A DNA stretch of 64,000 nucleotides, from assembly GCF_006363815.1 (NCBI RefSeq), contig NZ_RRYT01000006.1, forward strand, positions 216 through 64,215, in the 5' to 3' direction. The DNA is from Thermomonospora catenispora. Its GTDB lineage: Bacteria > Actinomycetota > Actinomycetes > Streptosporangiales > Streptosporangiaceae. A program made the position numbers and the translations under genes. Shown here piece after piece: positions 1,805 through 4,256 of the stretch (its first letter is position 1; each line of letters opens with the position of its first letter). Under the pieces are notes generated by a model, which worked only from the letters and a program-made list of their open reading frames with translations, did not search any database and was not told where the DNA came from.

Positions 1805-2689
1805 TCACGACGATCTCGCGCGACGGTCCCGTGCGTCGTCACGACGAGGGTGCCGGGCGGGGCGGTAGGTCGCGAGGGAGACCGAGAGGGGGACCCGGAT
1901 CGGGGCGGGGAGCTCGGCCAGCCTGGCGTGCAGCCGGGGGGCGGAGACGTGGCGGGCGCTGGGGCCCATGGCGACGAGGGTGAGGACCTCGTCGCGATCG
2001 AGGACGGCCTCGGTCTCCACCGTCGTGGTGGCGACGTGGACGAAGTGGGCGCCCAGGGCCCGATCGAGGCGTTCGCGTTTGCGGCCGTCGACCGTGAGCA
2101 GGCCCAGTTCCGGGATGAGGCGCCCCAGGTGGCGGGAGGTCGGGGTGACCACGTGGAGGAGGCCGTCGGGGGTGAGGACGCGGCGGTACTCGGGGCCGTT
2201 GCGGGGCGCGAAGACGTTGATGATCGCATCGACGGCGGCCGTCCGGACCGGGAGGGGCCGCCACAGGTCGGCGACGACCGCTCCGATGCGCGGGTGGGCG
2301 CGGGCGGCGCGACGGATGGCGTGTTTGGAGGCGTCGACGGCGAGGCCGACCGCGCCGGGGGCCCGGTCGAGCAGGCGGGCCAGGTAGTAGCCCGTTCCGG
2401 CGCCGGCGTCGAGGATGCGCCCGGCGGGCGGCAGTGCCTCCGCCGCCTGCGCGGCGAGCGCATCCGCCAGGGGTGCGAAGTGGCCCGCGCCCAAGAACGC
2501 CTCTCGGGCGCGGATCATCTCCGGGGTGTCGGCCGTGCCCGGCCGGGCGTCACCGGTGAGCAGGTTGACGTAGCCCTGACGGGCGATGTCGAAGGCGTGC
2601 CCCGACGCGCAGCGCAGGGCCCGTTCCTCCGGCGCCAGCCCCGCCCCGCAGACGGGGCAGGCCAGCAGGTCCAGCACGTCGGTCAGCAC
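1805..2689 (-). CDS. rlmA: RlmA/TlrB-type 23S rRNA (guanine-N1)-methyltransferase
   Basis: A 294-residue SAM-dependent methyltransferase. The N-terminal zinc knuckle is CPVC (11-14) followed by C..GH near 27-31, as in the RlmA/TlrB family, which methylates G745 or G748 in 23S rRNA helix 35. The SAM-binding motif DAGAGTGYY lies near residue 95, and the ASKHAIRRAARAHP stretch is also typical of this family. The start is the GTG at 2689, just upstream of the zinc knuckle. It lies 30 bases downstream of the thioredoxin gene on the same strand, so co-transcription is likely. The rRNA operon it may act on begins about 1.4 kb downstream. Whether it targets G745 or G748, and whether it gives macrolide resistance, cannot be told here. 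Confidence 0.85.
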   Translation of the reverse strand: MLTDVLDLLACPVCGAGLAPEERALRCASGHAFDIARQGYVNLLTGDARPGTADTPEMIRAREAFLGAGHFAPLADALAAQAAEALPPAGRILDAGAGTGYYLARLLDRAPGAVGLAVDASKHAIRRAARAHPRIGAVVADLWRPLPVRTAAVDAIINVFAPRNGPEYRRVLTPDGLLHVVTPTSRHLGRLIPELGLLTVDGRKRERLDRALGAHFVHVATTTVETEAVLDRDEVLTLVAMGPSARHVSAPRLHARLAELPAPIRVPLSVSLATYRPARHPRRDDARDRRARSS

Positions 2690-2719: not shown

Positions 2720-3073
2720 TCAGGACTTCAGGCGCTCGCGGACCTCGTCCATGTCCAGGGCGCGGACCTGTTCGATGATGCTCTCCAGCATCGGGGCCGG
2801 GAGCGCACCGGGCTCGGCGTACACGATCACGCCGTCGCGAATGGCCATGAGGGTGGGGATCGAGGTGATGCCGAAGCGCTCGGCCAGTTCCGGCTCGGCG
2901 TCGGTGTCCACCTTGGCGAACACGATGTCGGGGTGCTGCTCGGAGGCCTCCTCGAAGATCGGGGCGAACCGCCGGCAGGGGGCGCACCAGGACGCCCAGA
3001 AGTCGACCAGAACGATGCCGTCGGCCTGGGCGGTGACGTCGAAATCCTTCGCGGTCAGTGTGACCGTCGCCAT
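2720..3073 (-). CDS. trxA: Thioredoxin
   Basis: A 117-residue thioredoxin, full length for the family. The redox site is WCAPC within DFWASWCAPCRRFAP, and the cis-proline loop appears as SIPTLM. It reduces protein disulfides in the cytoplasm, normally recharged by thioredoxin reductase, which is not in the window. An ATG 36 bases further upstream is in frame, but GGAAGG sits 8 bases before the ATG at 3073, and the predicted divergent promoter places the transcript start near the upstream ATG, so the shorter start is chosen. The upstream region carries a SigR-type promoter motif, which fits a thiol-stress gene. RlmA follows 30 bases downstream. Confidence 0.92.
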   Translation of the reverse strand: MATVTLTAKDFDVTAQADGIVLVDFWASWCAPCRRFAPIFEEASEQHPDIVFAKVDTDAEPELAERFGITSIPTLMAIRDGVIVYAEPGALPAPMLESIIEQVRALDMDEVRERLKS

Positions 3074-3110: not shown

Positions 3111-3168
3111 AGCCGCGCGGTGGCCTGCGGTATTCCCGCTCGGGAATCACAGAGCCGTAATTAGCGTT
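3111..3168. promoter_or_regulatory. Back-to-back SigR-like promoters sharing a palindromic -35
   Basis: A perfect palindrome, ATTCCCGCTCGGGAAT (3132-3147), supplies a GGGAAT -35 element on each strand. Rightward, GGGAAT (3142-3147) is followed after exactly 18 bases by GTT (3166-3168), the consensus of the actinobacterial thiol-stress sigma factor SigR. Leftward, GGGAAT (3132-3137) is followed after 18 bases by GCT (3111-3113), one mismatch from GTT. The flanking genes, a thioredoxin and a group-2 sigma factor, are the kinds of gene SigR controls in Streptomyces (trx genes and hrdD). The motif is seen directly; the regulator is inferred. Confidence 0.7.
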
Positions 3169-3203
3169 GAATGAGCAGGGAGTTCGACCGGAGAAGGGTC
3201 AGG

Positions 3204-4256
3204 ATGGCTGAAACCCGCACCAAGGGCGAGAGTGTCGAGGCGCAGGACAAGGATCTGGTCGGTGCGTACCTCGACAGGATCGGCCGTACTCACCTGCTCG
3301 ACGCGCAGGAGGAGGTCGACCTGGCGAAGGCCATCGAGGGGGGCCTGTACGCCGAGCGGCTGCTGGAGGAGAACCGGATCCCGCCCGGGGTGAGCCGGGC
3401 GGAGCTGGAGGAGCTCGTGGCCGACGGGCTGCGCGCCAAACAGCGTTTCGTCGAGGCGAACCTCCGGCTGGTCGTGTCGATCGCGCGCAAGTACCCCACG
3501 GACGCCCTGCCGCTGATCGATCTCATCCAGGAGGGGAACCTGGGGCTGATGCGGGCGGTGGAGAAGTTCGACTACCGGCGCGGCTTCAAGTTCTCCACTT
3601 ACGCCACCTGGTGGATCCGCCAGGCCATCGGGCGCGGGCTCAGCCACACCGCCCGGACCATCCGGCTCCCGGTGCACGTGGAGGAGGAGCTGTCGCGGCT
3701 GCGGAGGGCCGAGCGGCAGCTGGGCCGTGAGCTGGGGCGGGAGCCGACCCGTGAGGAGCTGGCGCAGGCGCTGGGCGCCGAGCCCGAGCACGTGGACGAG
3801 CTGATGCGGTGGCGGCGGGATCCGGCGAGCCTGGACGCCGCGGTGGACGACGACGGCGAGACCCCGATGGGCGACCTGCTGGAGGACCCCGAGGGCGTCA
3901 GCCCGGAGGCCGAGGTGCTGGCGCTGGACGACATCGCGGGCCTGGGCAGGCTGCTGGAGCGGCTGCCGGAGCGCGAGTCGGCGATCCTGCGGGCGCGGTT
4001 CGGCATGGAGGACGGGCAGCCGCTCTCATACGCGCAGATCGGGGCGCGGTACGGGCTGAGCCACAACCGGGTGCGGCAGATCACCGACCGGTCGCTGCGG
4101 CGGCTGCGTCAGCTGGCGGCCGAGTCCGACCGGGTCGAGCACGTGACCGGGCACCGGGCGCGGTCCTCGTCTCCGTCGCAGCCCAAGCCGCTGGGCCATG
4201 GGCCGCACAGGCCGCGCCGCAAGCTGTCCCCGCCCGTTCCCACCAAGGCCGCCTAG
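3204..4256 (+). CDS. Group-2 RNA polymerase sigma factor (HrdD-like)
   Basis: A 350-residue sigma-70 family protein. Region 2 is intact: NLRLVVSIARKY, then DLIQEGNLGLMRAVEKFD and FSTYATWWIRQAI. Region 3 and region 4 follow, with the helix-turn-helix YAQIGARYGLSHNRVRQI and a final RSLRRLRQLA. It lacks the long acidic N-terminus of a principal sigma factor, which makes it group 2. An upstream in-frame ATG at 3171 falls at the predicted transcript start, so the ATG at 3204 with GAGAAGGG before it is preferred. The SigR-like promoter and the divergent thioredoxin argue for an HrdD-type role in stress transcription; this assignment is inference. Confidence 0.9.
   Translation: MAETRTKGESVEAQDKDLVGAYLDRIGRTHLLDAQEEVDLAKAIEGGLYAERLLEENRIPPGVSRAELEELVADGLRAKQRFVEANLRLVVSIARKYPTDALPLIDLIQEGNLGLMRAVEKFDYRRGFKFSTYATWWIRQAIGRGLSHTARTIRLPVHVEEELSRLRRAERQLGRELGREPTREELAQALGAEPEHVDELMRWRRDPASLDAAVDDDGETPMGDLLEDPEGVSPEAEVLALDDIAGLGRLLERLPERESAILRARFGMEDGQPLSYAQIGARYGLSHNRVRQITDRSLRRLRQLAAESDRVEHVTGHRARSSSPSQPKPLGHGPHRPRRKLSPPVPTKAA

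Follow-up and report, generated by a model that had tools for sequence, protein, structure and literature searches.

In the 64,000-nucleotide stretch of Thermomonospora catenispora DNA analysed here (the window), a thioredoxin gene (trx) on the minus strand and a sigma factor gene on the plus strand diverge from one another, with 130 bp between their start codons at 3073 and 3204, and this short intergenic stretch contains two outward-facing sequences that resemble promoters of the redox ECF sigma factor SigR. The elements are the following:

2720..3073, minus strand: thioredoxin gene, 117 aa, WCAPC active site; above the TIGR01068 cut-off, and the divergent partner in 43/43 loci
3111..3113, minus strand: leftward -10 GCT (putative trx promoter); GCT in 36/36 loci with a full leftward match
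3132..3137, minus strand: leftward -35 GGGAAT (putative trx promoter); GGGAAT-N18/19-GCT in 36/43 loci
3138..3141, no strand: gap of 4 bp separating the -35 elements; 4, 5, 10 or 152-257 bp in relatives
3142..3147, plus strand: rightward -35 GGGAAT (putative sigma gene promoter); identical in 43/43 loci
3148..3165, plus strand: rightward spacer, 18 bp, conserved, consensus CACAGAGCCGTAATTAGC from 15 representatives
3166..3168, plus strand: rightward -10 GTT; identical in 43/43 loci
3190..3198, plus strand: probable RBS of the sigma gene, GGAGAAGGG; a resembling stretch occurs in relatives
3204..4256, plus strand: group-2 type sigma factor gene, HrdD-like, 350 aa

The left flanking protein is a thioredoxin (TIGR01068, 101.3 bits against a cut-off of 96.8, with the WCxPC active site present), and the right one is a sigma factor of primary-like type, for which NCBIfam gives the SigB subfamily as best match, at 348.5 bits, under the cut-off of 464. 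The likely starts are the ATG at 3073 (minus strand) and the ATG at 3204 (plus strand), situated 37 and 35 nt past the respective -10 elements; of the alternative starts in the list of open reading frames, 3109 for trx and 3171 for the sigma gene lie within the promoters or immediately past them, and both were rejected in favor of 3073 and 3204, each of which has a likely RBS that recurs in relatives. Downstream of trx, the stretch 1805-2689 (minus strand) resembles the 23S rRNA (guanine-748-N1) methyltransferases of the MyrA/ChrB type, a resistance-type enzyme, with scores below the cut-offs.

Both promoters can be read directly in the DNA where the original prediction had placed them: the rightward one as GGGAAT at 3142-3147, N18 and GTT at 3166-3168, and the leftward one as GGGAAT at 3137-3132, N18 and GCT at 3113-3111. 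Two of its details did not hold, firstly, because positions 3132-3147, described as a perfect palindrome, read ATTCCCGCTCGGGAAT (ATTCCCG-CT-CGGGAAT) and are identical to their own reverse complement at 14/16 positions, forming a 7-bp inverted repeat that flanks an asymmetric CT, and secondly, because the two GGGAAT, said to overlap, are separated by 4 bp (3138-3141). When the 130-bp intergenic stretch was shuffled 100,000 times with its dinucleotides preserved, the rightward pattern appeared 40 times, the leftward pattern, loosened to G[CT]T after GCT had been seen, 92 times, and both together 0 times. The SigR consensus is given as GGAAT-N18-19-GTT (PMC9205884; also PMC2375139, PMC3489674); the leftward promoter agrees with the SigR/SigH class in its -35 GGAAT and in its N18-19 spacing, but not in the -10 GTT, and it is termed only SigR-like here because its -10 is GCT.

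At the level of the family, the sigma protein has a match with an E value of 1e-60 or better in 149 of 150 genomes; a close ortholog is found in 20 of the 150, the genome studied included (74-94% identity for the other 19), and in the whole order in 71/297 genomes and 7/62 genera. Family and order combined provide 72 genomes with an ortholog, from which 43 loci were read (our own and 42 orthologs, mostly from Actinomadura), 23 of them coming from additional members of a single genus, g38, which includes Actinomadura. The arrangement, whose presence in relatives the original prediction had proposed to look for, is conserved by direct observation: all 43 loci have a thioredoxin gene next to the sigma gene, in divergent orientation, and an exact rightward promoter, while the leftward promoter is present in 36/43, or in 38/43 when the first G is dropped from the pattern, and 5 to 7 of the loci have it in degraded form. 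Across 15 representatives with a similarity below 90% over 60 nt, neither the -35 nor the -10 of the rightward promoter varies, and the spacer 3148-3165, which is conserved between genera, averages 1.39 bits per column as against 0.73 for 33 downstream columns. Three named Actinomadura records carry the sigma ortholog at 84-87%; in Planobispora rosea and Nocardiopsis algeriensis no close ortholog was found, only sigmas at 48-51%.

The range of the trx promoter exceeds that of its pairing with the sigma gene. Among 30 genomes of the family that were chosen by hand and lack a close ortholog of the sigma, a trx ortholog is present in 29 (51-77% identity), and no sigma match was found near these genes in the surrounding DNA examined; since 28 of the 29 carry GGAA[TC]-N17-19-G[TC]T within 130 nt upstream, the trx promoter is probably older than the pairing.

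With regard to the sigma protein, its eight best named matches (L012-L019) all have GGAAT-N18-GTT upstream, whereas any GGAA[TC]-N17-19-GTT within 450 nt is found in 12 of the other 72 named matches, and no thioredoxin match lies beside the sigma gene in any of these 80 loci, the seven Streptomyces-type ones included. In a quick tree that comes with a warning about the meeting of long branches, a starred set (99) comprising 15 rows unites the window sigma with the seven Streptomyces-type proteins (one of whose records is labelled Streptosporangium), and it also takes in an Asanoa protein, the eighth of the named ones, and two members of the family at a greater distance. The seven, which were grouped after their promoters had been seen and are taken for HrdD by promoter and not by name, are probably HrdD; the window sigma would thus group with Streptomyces sigmas that have SigR-type promoters and are probably HrdD, and the label of HrdD-like that it first received is consistent with this tree. 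Of ten more distant family sigmas (48-56% identity), four (L130, L131, L132, L134) have GGAAC-N18-GTT and one (L139) has GGAAT-N18-GTT, always 59-74 nt upstream; the site lies further away in two and is absent in three.

The search for sigR and rsrA that had been suggested as a check located the pair in the genome (5.35 Mb, 109 contigs), where SigR stands above its curated cut-off on contig C21 (362.7 bits), RsrA, also above its cut-off, adjoins it, and a SigR-type site, GGGAAT-N18-GTT, ends about 215 nt before the sigR match. Two further sigma genes, without an adjoining RsrA, exceed the cut-off of the SigR model (C25:77937-78458 and C54:204242-204796), and no GGAA[TC]-GTT site indicative of autoregulation was seen for them with a pattern requiring C or G before the -10. 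The exact sequence GGGAAT-N18-GTT occurs 18 times in the genome, compared with 0 for the reversed-pattern control, while the enrichment of GGGAAT-N18-GCT is less clear (12 vs 3 in the control). Ten of the 18 exact sites precede family-matched genes, namely sigR, the window sigma, trxB, moeZ, relA/spoT, kgd, rho, hrpA, a MarR-type regulator and prfA (trxB, moeZ, relA/spoT, rho, hrpA and prfA above their cut-offs, kgd, which is cut short, and the MarR-type regulator below), the site at prfA being about 450 nt away from the gene. Two more precede genes that we take to be rbpA and an Rv2466c-like oxidoreductase, for which a family match is absent, and at least 2 of the 18 are intragenic, in genes that by eye look argS-like and nusA-like. 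The SigR targets of S. coelicolor named in PMC9205884 include hrdD, moeB, rbpA and trxB, hrdD being read by SigE too, and the premise that SigR/SigH controls thioredoxin genes and group-2 sigma genes in other bacteria agrees with what is reported in PMC9205884, PMC3489674 and PMC10012870.

The explanation that we consider probable is that of two separate divergent promoters within 130 bp, both of which would be recognised by SigR. From the sequences we infer that SigR reads both, together with the following logic of feedback and relay: (i) thiol oxidation would cause RsrA to release SigR, as is known in Streptomyces, where the release of SigR and the reduction of RsrA by thioredoxin are described (PMC5472188); (ii) SigR-RNA polymerase would transcribe the thioredoxin gene leftward, and thioredoxin would help to re-reduce RsrA; (iii) and it would transcribe the HrdD-like sigma gene rightward, relaying the stress signal to further genes. 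The near-palindrome would be a by-product of the back-to-back position of the -35 elements, whose closeness would be tolerated and not required, and the leftward promoter would be the weaker one owing to its GCT. Against this explanation weigh the fact that SigE also reads hrdD in S. coelicolor, and the two SigR-like paralogues without RsrA, by which either promoter might be shared or taken over.

Counting the 36 loci in which both promoters occur, a gap of 4 bp separates the -35 elements in 3, one of 5 bp in 23 and one of 10 bp in 6, and in the remaining 4 they are 152, 191, 235 and 257 bp apart; g1, g38 and g67 are the genera with 4-5 bp, g2, g17 and g49 those with 10 bp, and g21 and g51 those with more than 150 bp. 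Two holoenzymes at a gap of 4-5 bp would be crowded, given the footprints of the polymerase, and the original prediction had deduced a competition of the two outputs. As the point of the arrangement, it would mean that SigR polymerases at the close -35 elements exclude each other and that a trade-off between trx and sigma explains the layout. This agrees with the gap of 4 or 5 bp in 26 of the 36 loci, but those 26 come from only 3 of the 8 genera, the two promoters are kept at 10 bp in 6 loci of three genera and at 152-257 bp in 4 loci of two genera, and in the window there is no overlap between the -35 elements, so that we regard it as unlikely, and these sequences give no support to competition as a design that is kept. 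The pair is conserved as two promoters, which exist whether they are close or far apart, and mutual exclusion within the window itself, although possible, looks like a consequence of crowding. Hardly any credence can be given to a further alternative, in which the inverted repeat 3132-3147 would be the operator of a dimeric regulator and not a pair of -35 elements: its 7-bp arms would suit such a site, but where the gap is 10 bp or more than 150 bp each half-element retains its own -10 at N18/19, and the element and its -10 precede trx also where no sigma gene adjoins. The readings as a perfect palindrome and as an operator were discarded, the symmetry being incomplete and lost where the gap grows.

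As to the factor that reads the leftward promoter, the -10 is GCT and never GTT in the window and in the 36 matching loci. In genomes without the sigma, NTA follows the -10 of the trx promoter in 12/12 GCT sites (L202, L204, L208, L211, L217 and L220-L226) as against 2/17 GTT sites (Fisher p = 2e-6, for related sequences that are not independent), and in loci with the sigma it follows 34/38 GCT sites, the window (TGT) being among the four exceptions. These regularities, as well as the presence of the two additional SigR-like sigmas without RsrA, could be accommodated if the trx promoter were read by another factor, such as a SigR paralogue or a different ECF sigma preferring GCTNTA, and only the rightward one were SigR's; the GCT itself, the modest enrichment of GGGAAT-N18-GCT and the degradation in some loci also speak against SigR at the leftward promoter. 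However, the promoters of trx orthologs from other genera in the family carry an ordinary GTT at roughly the same position and with roughly the same spacing, and the pattern GGAAY-N18-GCTCTA, in 12 genomes mostly picked for their GCT-type trx promoter, gave 15 matches, 8 of them at trx, leaving 7 elsewhere, equal to the 7 of the control and unlike what a factor with its own regulon would leave; a separate GCTCTA regulon is thus not supported, and we hold the substitution of SigR by another factor to be quite improbable. It is conceivable, although doubtful, that the trx promoter of the family is often a distinct SigR-class variant in which GCTNTA replaces GTT, providing thioredoxin with its own setting while the rest of the regulon keeps GTT, and that the stretch is a split switch. 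In that case the setting could consist of a reduced output, of an additional sigma factor or of a regulator located on the -10, the changed second base of the -10 would be tied to the TA further on, and, together with a SigR-driven HrdD-like sigma, the split switch would combine a fast repair arm with a relay arm. Because in C. glutamicum SigH alone is associated with GGAAT, and both SigH and SigE with GGAAC (PMC10012870), the GGAAC/GCT variants may admit a second sigma factor. In seven trx promoters (L204, L217, L220-L223 and L226) a motif AGCGG-N6-CCGCT, detected by eye, surrounds the -10 and is a possible operator.

Bacterial divergent promoters in general place two outward-facing promoters in a short intergenic stretch, as in the window; the difference is that here both look like members of the same ECF class and the symmetry lies in the -35 elements, a combination for which the literature search, at the level of titles, found no example. 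Titles and abstracts on SigR, thioredoxin, hrdD and divergent promoters, with subscription journals mostly outside their scope, likewise gave no description of the trx/sigma SigR pair. As in the window, the SigR-dependent hrdD of S. coelicolor is a group-2 sigma gene behind a SigR promoter (PMC9205884), but the seven Streptomyces-type sigma genes lack a thioredoxin match beside them. In C. glutamicum, SigH, the counterpart of SigR, is reported to drive both a thioredoxin gene, trxB1 (GGAATA-N17-GTT), and the group-2 sigB, although these are separate genes (cg3299 and cg2102) with separate promoters, that of sigB having GGAAC and being SigE-dependent as well (PMC10012870, PMC3489674). The arrangement is a conserved case of SigR control of an apparently known kind. 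If SigR reads both promoters, a thioredoxin and a group-2 sigma would be under a single conserved control region in Actinomadura and neighboring genera, thioredoxin being what resets the SigR sensor in Streptomyces, and the link from SigR to HrdD would reach beyond Streptomyces. The gaps of 4, 5, 10 and more than 150 bp would then also constitute a natural series on possible interference between back-to-back promoters.

The back-to-back form ATTCCC-N0-12-GGGAAT-N18-GTT has 23 matches in 21 of the 150 family genomes and 0 in the control, 15 of them at the trx/sigma locus; the other 8 represent 7 places, two of the matches being alike in two genomes of one genus, and no gene pair common to these 7 places was seen when their reading frames were compared by eye. 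In one family genome (L182/L197, near 1501-1566) there is a further pair of back-to-back sites, each with GTT and separated by a gap of 12, at the start of a thioredoxin-like frame, which adjoins reading frames that by eye are sigma-like and anti-sigma-like.
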